Shown here: positions 39,689 through 64,000 of the stretch, piece by piece | Layout: every line of letters begins with the position of its first letter | Position numbering within the stretch: the stretch's first letter is position 1 | NCBI RefSeq assembly: GCF_031180975.1 | Contig: NZ_JAPSLI010000002.1 | Location: 1-64,000, forward strand | Direction of reading: 5' to 3' | DNA from: Microbacterium sp. | Lineage (GTDB): Bacteria; Actinomycetota; Actinomycetes; Actinomycetales; Microbacteriaceae | Length of the DNA: 64,000 bases | The notes under the pieces: generated by a model | Databases searched by the model: none | What the model was told of the DNA's origin: nothing | What the model saw: the letters and a program-made list of their open reading frames with translations, nothing else | Made by a program: the position numbers and the translations under genes

Positions 39689-40381
39689 GTGACGGAGGTC
39701 CCTGCGGGGGAGAGGCCTCTCACCGAGGAGCTCGGCGTCGACATCGACGAGCAGCTCCTCGAACGAGCTCTGACGCATCGTTCCTACGCGTACGAGCACG
39801 GCGGCATCCCGCACAACGAACGGTTGGAGTTCCTCGGCGACTCCGTGCTCGGGCTCGCGGTGACGGTGATGCTGTTCACGACGCACCCCGACCTCGACGA
39901 GGGGGAACTGGCGAAGCGGCGCGCGAGCGTCGTCTCGACCGTCGCCCTCGCCGAGGTCGCCCGCGGCATCGGGCTGGGCCGGCATCTCCGGCTCGGTCGC
40001 GGTGAAGAGCTCACCGGCGGCCGCGACAAGGACTCGATCCTCGCCGACACGATGGAGGCCGTCTTCGGTGCCGCCTTCCTGTCGGCCGGCCCGGACGCCG
40101 CCACCGAACTCGTGCTGCGGCTGACCGCACCGCTGCTGGCCGACCCGGAGCGGTACGGTGCGGCGATGGATCCCAAGACGAGCCTGCAGGAGCTCGCCGC
40201 CCGCCTGGGCTGCCCGCCGCCGATGTATTCGGTCGTGTCGGCCGGACCGGACCACGACCGGGTGTTCACCGCCACGGTCACCGTGGGCGAGCTCGCCTGC
40301 ACCGGACAGGGCAGCAGCAAGAAGACCGCCGAGATGTCGGCCGCTCTCACCGCATGGCGGCAGCTCAGCGACCGTGCCTGA
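39689..40381 (+). CDS. rnc: ribonuclease III
   Basis: A 230-residue double-strand-specific endonuclease for rRNA processing. The catalytic signature [14 protein letters not shown] lies near residue 47, with [13 protein letters not shown] before it and [19 protein letters not shown] carrying the second metal site. The C-terminal dsRNA-binding domain spans about 155-228 ([37 protein letters not shown]). The GTG at 39689 is ten bases after rpmF. Its stop overlaps the mutM start by eight bases, so mutM is probably translated by coupling. Confidence 0.96.
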
Positions 40382-41267
40382 GCTGCCCGAGGTCGAGGTC
40401 GTCCGCTCCGGTCTCGCACCCGCCGTCGTGGGTGCCAGGATCGCCGCGGTCGACGTCTTCGACGAGCGGGCCCTGACCCGACATCCCGGCGGCGCCGTCG
40501 ACTTCGTCGGCCGGCTGGAGGGGCGGTCGATCACCGCCGCCGCGCGCCGGGGCAAGTTCCTCTGGATGCCGCTGGACGGCGACGATGAGGCGATCATCGC
40601 CCACCTCGGCATGAGCGGGCAGATGCTGCTGCGGGCGCCGGATGCCGGAGCCGAGCGCCACGAGCGGGTCCGCGTGCACATCGAGCATCCGCAGCACGGC
40701 CGGCTCGCCGTGGTGTTCTCCGACCAGCGCACGTTCGGCTCCCTCGCCGTCGACCCGCTGCTGCCCACCGCCGACGGGGCGCCCGGCGGCTTCGGCAGCG
40801 ACGTGCCGCGTGCGCCGTCGCAGGTGGCGCACATCGCCAGGGACCCGCTCGACCCCGCCTTCGACGAGCGTCGATTCACGGATGCCGTCCGCGGCCGCTC
40901 CAGCGCGATCAAGCGCATCCTGCTCGACCAGACGCTGGTCAGCGGCATCGGCAACATCTACGCCGACGAGTCGTTGTGGGCCGCACGGATCCACCCCGAG
41001 ACCCACGGCCGCGCCCTCTCCGCCCAGGCGGTGCGCCGCCTGATGGGTGAGGTGCGACTCGTGCTGCAGAAGGCCCTCGCCGAGGGTGGCACCAGCTTCG
41101 ACGCCCAGTACGTGAACGTTAACGGGCAGGCCGGGTACTTCGCGCACTCGCTCAACGCGTACGGGCGCGGCGGCCGGCCGTGCCCGCGCTGCGGCGGCCC
41201 GATCCGCCGCGAGGCGTTCATGAACCGGTCGTCGCACTACTGCCCGCGCTGCCAGCGCCGCCGCTGA
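40374..41267 (+). CDS. mutM: formamidopyrimidine-DNA glycosylase
   Basis: A 297-residue base-excision repair enzyme for 8-oxoguanine and formamidopyrimidines. It begins [13 protein letters not shown] with catalytic Pro2 and Glu3, has [10 protein letters not shown], a helix-two-turn-helix block [18 protein letters not shown], and a C-terminal zinc finger [21 protein letters not shown] with CQRR. All expected catalytic residues are present. The GTG start at 40374 overlaps the rnc stop, which fixes it, since Pro2 must follow. It ends 24 bases before the dyad-symmetric repeat shared with the trmD-map gap. Confidence 0.96.
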
Positions 41268-41290: not shown

Positions 41291-41372
41291 CGCCGAGTGC
41301 ACGGCATCGCGCCGAGTGCACGGCATGCCGGCGTCGGCAGACCGTGCACTCGGCGGCTTCCCGTGCGCTCGA
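41291..41372. repeat. 82-nt dyad-symmetric repeat, copy A
   Basis: CGAGTGCACGGCAT occurs twice in direct order (41295-41308 and 41313-41326) and then CCGTGCACTCG and CCGTGCGCTCG in inverted order, giving a long foldback. A second copy of the same length lies at 63352-63433, agreeing at about 67 of 82 positions. Both lie in convergent intergenic gaps, here between mutM and the GNAT gene. Confidence 0.85.
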
Positions 41373-41384
41373 CGAATCGACCGC

Positions 41385-42473
41385 TCAGTCCAGCCGCTTC
41401 TGCCAGGCCGCGGCGTAGGAGACGGGCACGAAGCCGATCGCCTCGTTGATGTCCAGCATCGGACGGTTCTCCTCGGCGTTGAACGTCAGCACCCGCGGCG
41501 ACTCCGGCGCGATCCCGCGCCAGCGCAGCAGGTTCGCGCACTTCACGATCGTCCCGATCCGGTGTCCGCGGTGCTCCTTAAGCACGAGCGTCCCGAACTG
41601 GTGGGTGACACCGGTCAGGTCGGAGCCGATCACCAGCTGGTTGTACGCCACCAGTGCCCCGGACGGGACGTGCTCCACCGCGGCGACCGACACGGTCTGC
41701 CCGCTGTCGGCGAACCGCTTGTCGCGGCGCTGCACGCGTTCGGCATCCCACTGCTCCTCGTCCACGGCGAGGTCACCGCTGGGAACGTCGGTCGCCAGCC
41801 GTGACAGCACACGCGCATAGCCGTCCTGCAGCTCGGGCGGCGTCGGCAGCGTCCACGACACGATCCGGTAGTCCGGCCCCGCCACGGCCAACGCGTCGGC
41901 GAGCCGCGCCTCGACCGGGGTCAGGTCTCCGCGCAGGTCGAACTCGCTGGTGCGCTCGACCTGCTCCAGCTGCATGCCCGCCGTCTCCAGCGCCGTGCTG
42001 AGCTCGGTTTCGTGCACCCGCCCCCACCCCGTCGCCGGGACCAGAGCGCGCCCGGTCCCACCGGGCCGGTGCAGCGTCCAGGTCTGCAGGCTTGTGCGTC
42101 CGAGCTGCCGAGCTTCGTCCTCCGCAAGTGCCAGCAGCGCCTCCTCGACGCCCTGGCCCCAGGCATCCGGCTCCACCAGCAGATCGAACTCGGCGGTCGT
42201 GGCGCCCTCCTCCTGCGGAAGCGACAGCGTCACGGTCCCGACGATCCTGCCCTGCAGGTGGGCGATGAAGCCGCTCTGCAGACGGTCGGTGGAATCCAGC
42301 CAGTCCGGCAGCAACTCCTGCGCCGGCGGCGCGAGCTCGGCGATGCCGGCATCGTGCTCGCACACGCGGCGGTTCAGCTCCGCGTACGCGAGGAAGTCCG
42401 CCGCGTCCGCCGCGTCCAGCGACGCGGGTACGGTGAGCGGGGTGATGGTGAGCTCGTCGGTGAGCGTCGTCAT
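41385..42473 (-). CDS. GNAT-family N-acetyltransferase, tandem paralogue 2
   Basis: A 362-residue protein made of two GNAT-like domains. The C-terminal one has LVLKEHRGHRIGTIVKCANL near residue 287, the acetyl-CoA loop (R/Q-x-x-G-x-G/A type), and RVLTFNAEENRPMLDINEAI GF-type ending typical of two-domain GNATs. The N-terminal domain is less conserved. It is clearly a paralogue of the preceding gene, sharing STDVP/ATDVP, ENRPML and INEAIGF blocks. ATGA overlap couples the two. Double-GNAT proteins include mycothiol synthase, but this pair lies elsewhere and its substrate is unknown. Confidence 0.85.
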   Translation of the reverse strand: MTTLTDELTITPLTVPASLDAADAADFLAYAELNRRVCEHDAGIAELAPPAQELLPDWLDSTDRLQSGFIAHLQGRIVGTVTLSLPQEEGATTAEFDLLVEPDAWGQGVEEALLALAEDEARQLGRTSLQTWTLHRPGGTGRALVPATGWGRVHETELSTALETAGMQLEQVERTSEFDLRGDLTPVEARLADALAVAGPDYRIVSWTLPTPPELQDGYARVLSRLATDVPSGDLAVDEEQWDAERVQRRDKRFADSGQTVSVAAVEHVPSGALVAYNQLVIGSDLTGVTHQFGTLVLKEHRGHRIGTIVKCANLLRWRGIAPESPRVLTFNAEENRPMLDINEAIGFVPVSYAAAWQKRLD

Positions 42474-43567
42474 GTCAGATCCTTCTTCCAGGCGCCTTCG
42501 TAGGCGACGGGGGTGAAGCCGATGGCCTCGTTGATGGAGAGCATGGGCCGGTTCTCCTCGGCGTTGTAGGTGATCACCTTCGGCGAAAGCGGATGCCGCT
42601 GCCGCCAGCCGAGCAGCCCGGCGGTCTTGACGAGCATCCCGAGCCGGTGGCCGCGGTGGTCGGCGAGCACGAGCGTGTCGTGCTGGTGGGTGGCGGATGC
42701 CGGATTCGCCGCCGTCATCGCCAGCTCGTTGAACGCGCACAGTTCGCCGGTGCCGACGTGCTGGGCGGCGGTGACGAGCACCGTCCACCCCTTCTGCGCG
42801 TAGCGTTCCTCGTGGCGGGCGACGCGGTCGGCATCCCAGACCTCCTCCGGAAGGCCGAGGTCGGCGTCCGGGACGTCCGTCGACATCCGCGACTTCATCC
42901 ACGCGTAGCCCTCCACCCACTCCGAAGGCGTGGGCAGCGTCCACTGCACGACGCGGTACTCCGTCGCATGGCGCGCGGCCTCATCCCGCAGTGCGGACAG
43001 GTGTGCGGCGGTGCCGTCGGTCCACACCAGCGCGCTGGCGCGCTCCACCTGCTCCAAGCGGTAGCCGTTGGCGGCCAGGAATCGGGCGGAACGGTCGGCG
43101 GGCACGGTGCCGAACCCGGTCGGCGAAGCCAGCGGCGTCCGCCCCGGGCCGTCGTCGTGGTGCTCGCTCCAGTGCAGCAGGCTGCGCACTCCGGCGTCAC
43201 GCGCGATGCGTTCCACATGCGCGTACGCGGCGGAGCCGATGCCGCGCCCGGCGACCTCGTCGAGCAGTGCGACGATGGCGAGCGCCATGCGTCCACCGTC
43301 GTCCTTGAGGATGTCCAGAGCACAGCATCCGACGATCCGGCCGTCGAGTTCGACGTACCACTGGCGCCGCTCCTGGTCCGGCGTGGTGTACAGCGTCGGC
43401 AGCAGCTCCTCGGCGGTGAGCGCGTCGTCGTCGCGGCCGGTGGACTCCAGGATCGTCGCGTTGCGCACGGCGGCGTACTCGCGGATCAGCGGGGAGGTCC
43501 CCGCATCCGCCCGGGCCGGAAGCTCGAGCGGATGCAGGGTCGCTCCTGCGGGAAGGGGGATCGACAT
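42470..43567 (-). CDS. GNAT-family N-acetyltransferase, tandem paralogue 1
   Basis: A 365-residue two-domain GNAT protein. The N-terminal domain has MALAIVALLDEVAGRGIGSA with an acetyl-CoA loop near residue 90, and the C-terminal one has LVLADHRGHRLGMLVKTAGL near residue 288 and KVITYNAEENRPMLSINEAI. GAGGAG precedes the ATG. The first domain loop is better preserved here than in the paralogue downstream. It follows the 97-residue gene by 13 bases, in an operon that begins at the promoter near 44250. Substrate unknown; antibiotic or amine acetylation are both possible. Confidence 0.85.
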   Translation of the reverse strand: MSIPLPAGATLHPLELPARADAGTSPLIREYAAVRNATILESTGRDDDALTAEELLPTLYTTPDQERRQWYVELDGRIVGCCALDILKDDGGRMALAIVALLDEVAGRGIGSAAYAHVERIARDAGVRSLLHWSEHHDDGPGRTPLASPTGFGTVPADRSARFLAANGYRLEQVERASALVWTDGTAAHLSALRDEAARHATEYRVVQWTLPTPSEWVEGYAWMKSRMSTDVPDADLGLPEEVWDADRVARHEERYAQKGWTVLVTAAQHVGTGELCAFNELAMTAANPASATHQHDTLVLADHRGHRLGMLVKTAGLLGWRQRHPLSPKVITYNAEENRPMLSINEAIGFTPVAYEGAWKKDLT

Positions 43568-61981: not shown

Positions 61982-62605
61982 GTGGCGGCCGAGAAGAACC
62001 AGCTCCGCGTCGGCCGCCTGCTCAAGGCGCACGGCCTCAAGGGCGCGTTGAAGCTCGAGCTGTACACCGACAACCCGGAGCGGCGTTTCGTCCCCGGCGC
62101 CGAGTTCACCTTGCAGGTGCCCGAGGCGTCCGCCTGGCACGGCAAGACCGTGACCGTGCGCGAGTACCGGGTCATGAACGGCAACCCGGTGGTGTTCCTG
62201 GAGGGCGTCGAGGACCGCACCGCGGCCGAGTCGCTGGTCCGCGCCATCCTGTGGATCGACCAGGACGACGAGCCGGAGGACAACGCCTGGTACGACCATC
62301 AGCTGGTCGGCCTGGAGGTCGTCCGCGACGACGTCCCGGTCGGGCGGGTGGTGCGCGTCGAGCACCTGCCCGCGCAGGACCTGCTGATCGTCAAATCCGG
62401 GGACCGCGAGGTGATGGTCCCGTTCGTCGAGGCGATCGTCCCGACCGTCGATCCGGTGGCCGGCCGCATCGTCGTCACGCCCCCTGCCGGGCTCTTCGAG
62501 GAGATCTCCGGCGACGACGTCGCGGAGCCGGATGCCGCGGATGCCGCCCCCGGTGCGGACGCCGGCAGCGCCGACACGGACGAGGGGCGCCCCGCCTCCC
62601 AGTGA
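61982..62605 (+). CDS. rimM: ribosome maturation factor RimM
   Basis: A 207-residue 30S assembly factor that binds uS19. [20 protein letters not shown] is the N-terminal beta-barrel signature, and [20 protein letters not shown] with [20 protein letters not shown] is the PRC-barrel domain. The last 30 residues are an Asp/Ala-rich tail ([20 protein letters not shown]). The GTG at 61982 is one base after khpA. In-frame starts further upstream (61943) would overlap khpA without reason. Confidence 0.95.
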
Positions 62606-62616
62606 GGCCACGCATC

Positions 62617-63327
62617 ATGCGCGTCGACGTCGTCTCGATCTTCCCGTCGTACTTCGACGGACTCGCGCTCTCGCTGCTCGGCAAGGCGCGGGACGCCGGC
62701 ATCCTCGACCTCCGCGTCCACGACCTGCGCGACTGGACGCACGACCGGCACCGCACCGTCGACGACACACCCTACGGCGGCGGCGCCGGCATGGTGATGA
62801 AGCCGGAACCGTGGGGTCTCGCGCTCGACGAGCTCGTAGGCGTGTCCGCGGATGCGCCCGCCGTGACCGGCGAGCGCCCCACCATCATCTTCCCGTCACC
62901 CGCCGGCGAGTTGTTCACGCAGCGGACCGCGCGCGAACTCGCCATGCGTGAGCATCTGGTGTTCGGCTGCGGCCGCTACGAGGGCATCGACGAGCGGGTC
63001 TTCGAATACGCGGCCGAGCTCGGCGAGGTGCGCCTCATCAGCCTCGGCGACTACGTGCTGAACGGCGGAGAGGTCGCCGTGATGGCGATGGTCGAGGCCA
63101 TCGGCCGGCTGATCCCCGGCGTGGTCGGCAACCCGGAGAGCCTGGTCGAGGAATCGCACGAGGACGGGCTCCTCGAGTACCCGTCCTACACCAAGCCCTC
63201 CGTCTGGAGGGACCGCGCCGTGCCGGACGTGCTGCTGAGCGGCAACCACGGCGCGATCGCCGCGTGGCGTCGCGAGCAGCAGCTCGAGCGCACCCGCGCC
63301 CGGCGCCCCGACCTGCTCGGCGAGTAG
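62617..63327 (+). CDS. trmD: tRNA (guanine(37)-N(1))-methyltransferase
   Basis: A 236-residue SPOUT enzyme methylating G37 next to the anticodon to prevent frameshifts. [20 protein letters not shown] starts the protein, [20 protein letters not shown] follows near 50, and the knotted SAM site has [20 protein letters not shown] with [36 protein letters not shown] ends the core. The ATG at 62617 is 11 bases after rimM. It ends 24 bases before a copy of the dyad repeat and converges on map. Confidence 0.97.
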
Positions 63328-63351: not shown

Positions 63352-63433
63352 CGCCGAATGCACGGCATCCCGTCGAGTGCACGCCCTGCCCGCGCGGGTT
63401 GCCCGTCCACTCGGCGAGTTCCCGTGCACTCGA
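63352..63433. repeat. 82-nt dyad-symmetric repeat, copy B
   Basis: CGAATGCACGGCAT and TCGAGTGCACG in direct order are followed by CCCGTCCACTCGGCGA and CCCGTGCACTCGA inverted. It matches copy A (41291-41372) at about 67 of 82 positions with no length change; changes cluster in the central loop. It fills the gap between convergent trmD and map and could fold as a long hairpin. Confidence 0.85.
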
Positions 63434-63456
63434 GGAGGGGAGGCAGGGGAGCGCCG

Positions 63457-64000
63457 TCAGTCGACGCCCAGGAACGAGCGGTCGGTGAGGACGATCGGGC
63501 CGTCCTCGGTGACCGCCACGGTGTGCTCGGAATGCGCGCCGCGGGAGCCGTCGGCGCTGCGCAGCGTCCAACCGTCGGGGTCGGTGATGAGCTCGTCGGT
63601 GGTGGCCAGGAACCACGGCTCCAGCGCGAACACCAGGCCCGCGCGCAGCGGGAACCCGCGGCCGGCGCGGCCGTCGTTGGGCACGTGCGGGTCGCCGTGC
63701 ATGATCCGGCCGACGCCGTGGCCGCCGAAGTCGGTGTTGATCGAGTAGCCCTCACCGTGCGCGACGGCCGCGATCGCGGCGGAGATGTCGCCGATGCGGT
63801 TGCCGACGACGGATGCCGCAATGGCGGCATCCAGTGCCCGCTCGGTCGTCTCGATGAGCCGCAGGTCCTCGTCGCGGGGTGTCCCCACCACGAACGACAC
63901 GGCCGAGTCCGCCACCCAACCGTCGACCGACACGGCGAAGTCGAGGGAGACCAGATCGCCGTCCCGCAGCGTGTAGTCGTGGGGAAGGCCGTGCAGCACG
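63457..64000 (-). CDS. map: type I methionine aminopeptidase, 5' part cut by the window edge
   Basis: At least 181 residues of MAP; the N-terminal 80 or so lie beyond base 64000. Metal ligands are Asp in VSLDFAVSVDGWVADSAVSF (two Asp), His in GGHGVGRIMHGDPHVPND, Glu in FALEPWF and Glu in AHSEHTVAVTEDG, all present. It removes the initiator methionine from new proteins. The visible gene is convergent with trmD. Its start and its upstream partner (often adk and secY in actinobacteria) cannot be seen. Confidence 0.93.
   Translation of the reverse strand, partial: VLHGLPHDYTLRDGDLVSLDFAVSVDGWVADSAVSFVVGTPRDEDLRLIETTERALDAAIAASVVGNRIGDISAAIAAVAHGEGYSINTDFGGHGVGRIMHGDPHVPNDGRAGRGFPLRAGLVFALEPWFLATTDELITDPDGWTLRSADGSRGAHSEHTVAVTEDGPIVLTDRSFLGVD

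Follow-up and report, generated by a model that had tools for sequence, protein, structure and literature searches.

Among described bacterial systems, the nearest in organisation to the one reported here is the REPtron: a RAYT gene lies between inverted REPs, evolves in step with them and diverges more rapidly than the genes beside it (PMC2817692). REPs are hairpins of 20-40 bp (PMC3733652), and in some groups the RAYT protein reads imperfect palindromes (PMC8266576); the main text of PMC12306157 gives REP counts for a few Actinomycetota, with Microbacterium and Collinsella not among them. A second point of reference is AbiEi, of the AbiE type IV toxin-antitoxin systems, a protein that binds its own promoter at inverted repeats (PMC7319586).

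The arrangement that we describe in Microbacterium resembles a REPtron on several counts: a gene, here called X, is bracketed by two palindromes; the palindromes are dispersed in intergenic DNA and co-diverge with X, which changes faster than its neighbour; a close X goes with the presence of copies, although many copy-bearing genomes lack one; and the palindromes are imperfect, like those of some RAYT groups. It differs in that X is AbiEi-like, with no Y1/HUH (IS200/IS605-like) transposase match in Pfam among its orthologues, in the size and build of the unit (~84 bp, with four words in a 19-nt register), in a consensus of 76 copies that carries no GTAG head, in words that change almost completely between orthologues, and in a strong bias towards the replication origin. 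Since X is not a RAYT, the likeness is one of working and not of membership. The resemblance to AbiE is that X matches the PADLOC AbiEi models; however, no AbiEii-type gene was found among the scanned neighbours of X, X has an extra conserved C-terminal region of ~110 aa, and its repeats not only flank the gene on either side but also occur around the chromosome.

The window, a stretch of 64,000 nucleotides from Microbacterium sp. (contig NZ_JAPSLI010000002.1, positions 1 to 64,000), contains two such units, A and B. Their features, in window positions, are as follows:

40158..41267, forward strand: mutM ORF encoding formamidopyrimidine-DNA glycosylase (matched from residue 73), with its stop codon 23 nt ahead of element A
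41291..41374, no strand: element A, a four-word palindrome of 84 bp in the gap between the converging mutM and GNAT-domain ORFs
41294..41302, forward strand: element A word 1 (CGAGTGCAC)
41313..41321, forward strand: element A word 2, 19 nt past word 1
41344..41352, reverse strand: element A word 3, inverted, 31 nt past word 2
41363..41371, reverse strand: element A word 4, inverted, with one mismatch, 19 nt past word 3
41385..42944, reverse strand: GNAT acetyltransferase-domain ORF, right of A and converging, its stop 10 nt past element A
62251..63327, forward strand: trmD ORF (matched from residue 123), with its stop codon 24 nt ahead of element B
63352..63435, no strand: element B, a four-word palindrome of 84 bp in the gap between the converging trmD and map ORFs
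63355..63363, forward strand: element B word 1, with one mismatch
63374..63382, forward strand: element B word 2
63405..63413, reverse strand: element B word 3, inverted, with one mismatch
63424..63432, reverse strand: element B word 4, inverted
63457..63999, reverse strand: map ORF, right of B and converging, at the window end, its stop 21 nt past element B

A home-made gene caller puts the start of the GNAT-domain gene near 42473, and the map ORF is a type I methionyl aminopeptidase, the profile being matched from position 75. A first-pass annotation of the window had picked out these two units as a two-copy element in short gaps between converging genes, and both converging pairs are confirmed. 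Its hand count of 67 identical positions in 82 (41291-41372 against 63352-63433) is reproduced exactly, and becomes 68/84 over the full units (41291-41374 and 63352-63435); the direct pair and the inverted pair of CGAGTGCACG-type words lie where it placed them. The mismatches between A and B (positions 7, 19, 22, 33, 35, 40, 44, 45, 48, 49, 51, 56, 66, 67, 77 and 83) are commoner around the centre, as had been said, although they are not confined to it, and the suggestion that arm pairing is kept does not hold, pairing being only 35/42 and 32/42 and opposite arms being independent over 76 copies. The description 'two-copy' is true within the window but not beyond it: in the 3.23-Mb source genome (G000) a profile built from 15 copies finds 19 full-length members of a dispersed palindrome family, A and B among them, together with fragments.

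When the entire window is scanned for palindromes without reference to the words, A and B rank as the top two (27.6 and 23.8, with a third-best score of 18.4 and a block-shuffled maximum of 16.8), and the best internal lag is 19 in both; their folding z-scores are -5.8 and -2.7. At Rfam gathering thresholds only a tRNA matched in the window and no known RNA family at the elements. A single word of the DNA-uptake type was also considered and rejected, CGAGTGCACG with at most one mismatch occurring 17 times in the window against 18.4 expected by chance.

The unit of ~84 bp repeats one word, CGAGTGCAC (in a longer form of ~14 nt, CGCCGAGTGCACGG), as a direct pair, a centre and an inverted pair in a 19-31-19 register (>19>31<19<), with CG at the dyad axis in most units of the family. 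A MAFFT alignment of 76 copies from six genomes is gap-free; this set consists of 80 matches minus three truncated or partial ones (L134, L136 and the second in L126) and a duplicate (L142). A second set of 76 copies was collected by an ungapped scan, and gap-tolerant profile searches at ungapped-scan sites return matches of almost full model length. The register has exceptions, with a centre spacing of 29 or 32, and some units have three to four tandem words on one side; tandem 19-nt words in the combinations 3+2, 2+3 and 2+4 are seen at L116:2363-3710, L180:5277-5400, L168:5353-5450 and L198:7146-7250, a pattern suggestive of slippage or growth in steps of one word. An array of three full and further partial elements lies at L104:2566-3168 (G000 C16:134461-135064), and the orthologous place holds two copies in each of G033 and G211. 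Integron attC sites are likewise imperfect palindromes, in which two boxes pair, the spacers are mismatched and a terminal part is present, all of which the Microbacterium elements share; the latter, however, conserve all four words and stand mostly as isolated copies at gene ends.

The CGAGTGCAC family is present in 70 of 247 Microbacterium genomes (76-copy model, E<=1e-6), a search that scored few candidates in each genome, so that the match counts per genome are lower bounds and weak families may escape. Among 57 relatives besides G000, strong matches are confined to Microbacterium, two genomes of other genera giving a single match each (E 0.002-0.006), and an exact-pattern scan of named genomes returned 77 stretches, 74 from Microbacterium and three from 'Actinomycetota bacterium'. 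Five complete Microbacterium genomes carry 16-25 sites each. Several draft contigs start in or beside elements or the X locus (G166:C9:3-86, G100:C18:28-111, G234:C13:60-143, G150:C13:230-1318), so draft copy numbers may be underestimates; at the end of G033 contig C45, the element at L134:3719-3802 runs into what is presumably a Nextera transposase adapter, which we take to be an assembly artefact. Carriage by phages or plasmids was rejected, with matches in 0 of 50,697 phage records and in two of 72,556 plasmid records, both of which resemble chromosome pieces; 52 pattern matches in viral_contigs include no relative. The functional reading of the first-pass annotation was to fail if only two copies existed or if copies were randomly placed; a whole-genome search, as it had proposed, finds many, and their placement is not random.

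Gene X, which lies outside the window, was reached through a locus at which elements cluster:

contig C10:180486-181529: gene X, AbiEi-like, bracketed by two elements

X is ~320-350 aa long, adjoins a YqaJ-like core gene, Y, and rplJ/rplL, and has an element on both sides in six element-rich genomes. PADLOC AbiEi models match X orthologues in 28 of 28 cases; Pfam at E<=0.5 gives AbiEi_4 in nine and AbiEi_1 in seven of the 28, those fully inspected falling below the curated cut-off. The C-terminal part, which extends beyond AbiEi, carries an invariant D..ExDGxxKY..EKxRED..RG pattern that is putatively DUF559/Vsr-like. Pfam gave no nuclease match in X, an hhalign comparison to E. coli Vsr was negative and Vsr homology was set aside; a profile search of solved structures returned no match to X, and structure predictions of X are of poor quality. 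At four X-family loci the eight nearest called neighbours include no AbiEii (DUF1814) toxin gene, and an AbiEii-type gene is likewise missing among the neighbours scanned at L090 and L116.

Homologues of X (E<=1e-30) occur in 161 of the 247 genomes, one to four in each, and the source genome has two further ones. Elements are present in every one of the 23 genomes that match X best (against 70/247 overall; Fisher 1.2e-14); the next-ranked, G238 and G085, score as negative. A close X (>=329 bits) is missing from 47 of the 70 element-positive genomes, and at 1e-30 X finds no match in the element-rich G083, G100 and G234, so that X as an absolute requirement is rejected, and either the elements persist without X or another protein serves them. 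The YqaJ/lambda-exonuclease-like gene Y (L090:3958-4635 in the source genome) was ruled out as the partner because it is nearly universal (243 of 247 genomes, single in most).

The geometry extends to loci with other words. Twenty X/Y loci were fetched, 13 with X from genomes in which the CGAGTGCAC family has no match at 1e-6; the other seven come from G100, G063, G261, G082, G092, G034 and G204, where G100 and G034 have Y without X and G204 has a partial X. At the 13 loci a palindrome scoring at least 17 stands on both sides of X in 11 and on one side in two (L342, L343), and the words, of which GAGACCCACC, CGACGCCCCTG, CGACCCACCCCTT and ATCATGTCCTCTCG are examples, bear no relation to CGAGTGCAC. 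Length and the 19-nt lag are kept at most of them, L341 and L342 fitting least (lag 19 is not the best there). At these two loci (L341:4088-4177, L342:2459-2543) the flanking palindrome overlaps the 3' end of X, and the X frame runs into it. Over 23 X loci, CGAGTGCAC ones included, 38/46 flanks score at least 17 against 4/138 control windows; lag 19 is the best of 14 tested in 36/39 X-flanking elements, and the axis dinucleotide is CG in 30/39. The centre of the unit upstream of X lies in most cases 140-190 nt ahead of the start codon, and the downstream unit is nearly as regular.

Twenty further X-family loci were taken, and at the 17 that lie away from Y, 30/34 flanks score at least 17, with lag 19 best in 27/30; three that hold Y (L371, L373, L376), counted apart, give 5/6 flanks and lag 19 in all five. 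The words differ between X-family loci, and of the modules one lies between flagellar genes and others between metabolic genes. A second AbiEi-like locus in the source genome (L360:2300-3610, G000 C14) is bracketed by elements with ACACCCCGG-type words.

The dispersed families of G203, G063, G002 and G261 were predicted from the X locus alone, and they were found: a model built from seven X-flanking elements gave 49 strand-hits in G203, 46 in G063, 32 in G002 and 20 in G261 (training sites included), none in G211, G240, G219 and G005, two in G000 and, in G172, which has similar words of its own, 32 weaker ones. G092 and G261 have dispersed CGAGTGCAC copies, yet their X locus carries other words; the CGAGTGCAC copies are possibly relics of an X since replaced.

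Over 22 genomes the identity of X tracks the similarity of its flanks (Mantel rho 0.61, with 0 of 5000 permutations as high), whereas for the neighbour Y rho is 0.16, and the partial correlation of X and element given Y is 0.60. G005 and G063, for instance, are 95% identical in Y and 44% in X, and their element similarity is 0.40 against a shuffled 95th percentile of 0.42. Judged by these comparisons, X and its elements diverge as one module at a fixed site while the core neighbour Y stays conserved, and every palindrome family apparently belongs to a single gene of DNA-binding type, which it brackets and with which it changes.

The best explanation, to which we assign a probability of roughly 0.6, is a REPtron-like system built on a non-HUH protein, X. 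We infer from the arrangement of gene and repeats that X would bind the words through its N-terminal winged-helix (AbiEi-like) domain, which is plausible because AbiEi proteins bind promoter inverted repeats, and that the upstream unit would be its operator, through which X would regulate itself. X, possibly with nuclease activity in its C-terminal domain, would act at the unit centre, presumably by cleavage, and, now or in the past, would have spread solitary units chromosome-wide, as TnpA-REP/RAYT is thought to do for REPs. Such units would survive just past stop codons, where they would do least harm, and mostly near the origin; their spacers would stay mismatched perhaps because a perfect 84-bp palindrome is unstable, or because the protein reads the mismatch. 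One point against spread by X is that the origin bias is no obvious consequence of transposition.

That bias was measured in five complete genomes (G004, G240, G189, G211 and G199) in which dnaA and dif were located, and whose 96 sites become 76 after collapsing those within 10 kb. By tenths of the way from origin to dif, the collapsed sites number 17, 13, 12, 11, 7, 9, 5, 0, 1 and 1; the origin half holds 60/76 (binomial 3.9e-7, with gene-content gradients uncontrolled), and the last 30% before dif only 2/76, a depletion near the terminus. Taken singly, the collapsed sites give KS values below 0.05 in G004, G240 and G189, 0.056 in G211 and 0.12 in G199. The unrelated word family of G203 has all 23 sites (18/18 collapsed) in the origin half, its terminus being assumed to lie opposite dnaA. 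A first guess from G004, that sites centre on the terminus, was dropped once dnaA and dif were placed.

The nucleoid-occlusion sites of Noc (NBS) and SlmA (SBS), which number in the tens, are likewise dispersed and scarce near the terminus, and an alternative is that the elements are chromosome-domain marks of this kind, fixed arrays on the origin-proximal chromosome bound by X or another protein and depleted at the terminus because a function demands it. The origin bias in two unrelated families, words conserved regardless of pairing and a nearly fixed geometry would all suit such marks. The elements differ from Noc and SlmA sites, however, in being ~84-bp palindromes with a bracketed partner gene and in varying within one genus: the CGAGTGCAC family is unmatched in 177 of 247 genomes, another family at the X locus having been seen for the few loci fetched. 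Moreover, sites turn over between species, the collapsed bias is non-significant alone in two of the five genomes, and the figures, that for G203 with its assumed terminus included, stand without other intergenic features as a control for gene-content gradients. We consider this alternative unlikely.

The copies sit chiefly at gene ends. A gene 3' end lies within 60 nt of 106 of the 131 non-overlapping copies, and a 5' end within 60 nt of 36; the median distances are 24 nt to flanking 3' ends and 80 nt to 5' ends. By the home-made gene caller, the 130 copies with clear neighbours fall into 46 convergent, 70 tandem and 14 divergent gaps, against 19, 105 and 75 respectively of the element-free gaps of at least 84 nt. 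Convergent gaps are enriched (46/130 against 19/199; Fisher 1.5e-8), a bias that the first-pass annotation had proposed looking for, and divergent gaps are depleted (Fisher 3.1e-8). These counts omit the 21 of 152 copies that overlap a called gene and one copy without a neighbour, the background gaps were drawn from the fetched stretches and the window rather than from whole genomes, and the caller sets some genes wrongly (mutM was overlooked in L092, and X was called incorrectly in L090). Fitting the orientation of the copies yields a polar consensus; a tie between polarity and transcription was discarded after a by-eye count over tandem contexts gave no clear link. Some element sites are common to several species and a few orthologous gaps are element-less, one of them being shorter, at 38-44 nt in G211 where G004 and G029 have 111-134 nt, the other gaps less clear.

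This placement bears on a second alternative, in which X would be a solitary AbiEi-type autoregulator, its flanking units operators, and the dispersed copies immobile sites serving either regulation or passive titration. The binding of AbiEi to inverted repeats in its own promoter (PMC7319586) is a precedent, and the position of the upstream unit before the start codon would be apt for an operator. The prevalence of gene 3' ends over 5' ends among the dispersed copies speaks against it, as do the regularity of the unit after X, which nearly equals that of the unit before it, and the differences between species in the copies at orthologous gaps; we rate it as distinctly improbable.

The same placement, at 3' ends and in convergent gaps, favours a third alternative, that the elements are bidirectional terminators or 3'-end stabilisers of converging genes, selected as hairpins, and the strong folds predicted at both window copies agree with it. 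Covariation of the arms, which the first-pass annotation had named as support, was not found: opposite arms vary no more jointly than independent arms. The fraction of word positions that pair is 0.899 in the first 76-copy set against 0.901 when arms are shuffled between copies within a genome, and 0.867 against 0.870 in the second, and an earlier count on 15 copies agrees with independent arms. Spacers pair less than expected, with z of -4.0 and -5.6 under two nulls in the first set and of -2.4 and -2.8, again below expectation, in the second. RNAalifold over 76 copies returns no long consensus stem, only five pairs at -2.55 kcal/mol. Under the tool's own shuffle of the 76-copy alignment, which was oriented for maximal agreement and which the shuffle mixes across genomes, the covariation score is slightly high (13/500 shuffles as high) and pair types show no excess (265/500). 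A scan for intrinsic terminators (GC stem and T run) found 0 sites at both window copies.

Independent arms and under-pairing spacers speak against selection for an RNA hairpin; each word behaves like a unit conserved on its own, as would be expected of protein sites, and perfect palindromy is, to judge from the spacers, avoided in the element family. With one element also upstream of X, and words that switch wholly with X as no terminator would need, a hairpin-selected terminator or stabiliser is very doubtful and was rejected as the selected object, although the elements may cause incidental termination or mRNA protection. Of the three readings that the first-pass annotation had offered, the REP/MITE-like repeat is thus largely upheld, by the many copies, the 3'-end and convergent bias, the element-less orthologous gaps and the bracketed partner gene; the protein-binding site gains indirect support from the independent words, the fixed register and the co-divergence with an AbiEi-like gene; and the terminator or RNA-stability element, lacking covariation, consensus hairpin and T-run, is not sustained as the main function.

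Beyond Microbacterium, an X-like gene of Collinsella (30% identical) is bracketed by arrays of another palindrome with an exact word spacing of 42 nt. Over three 49-kb stretches this palindrome occurs at three further places in the gene-bearing one, at one in another and at none in the third. The Collinsella protein has no PADLOC model match, which makes its link to the X system weaker. The record concerned (L357-L359, Collinsella aerofaciens NZ_OY725717.1) was deposited as a plasmid and has trmD, rpsP, rplU, obgE and similar genes; with such chromosomal-type genes it looks like a chromosome piece, and a Tsukamurella record is equally suspected. The X homologue of Tsukamurella has no clear flanking palindromes (13.4 and 12.6).

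Returning to the REPtron-like reading, a broader proposal is that AbiEi-like proteins of Actinomycetota (in Microbacterium and, probably, Collinsella) would each use a separate palindrome code in a 19-nt register, would swap at fixed loci along with their palindromes and would seed cognate origin-proximal sites, forming a class of protein-palindrome systems; on this we would lay even odds. The open-access texts searched pointed to no such system for Microbacterium or with AbiEi. If the proposal is true, the class would represent a non-HUH route for spreading REP-like elements, or else protein-specific marks of the origin half of the chromosome. REP-like seeding of genomes would then have had two or more separate origins involving unrelated proteins, and an antitoxin-like family of DNA-binding proteins would have a second life in keeping a genome-wide palindrome code. 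Dozens of natural pairs of protein and word would become available for studies of recognition, and the origin bias in two unrelated word families would offer a testable link between palindromes and chromosome layout in Actinomycetota.
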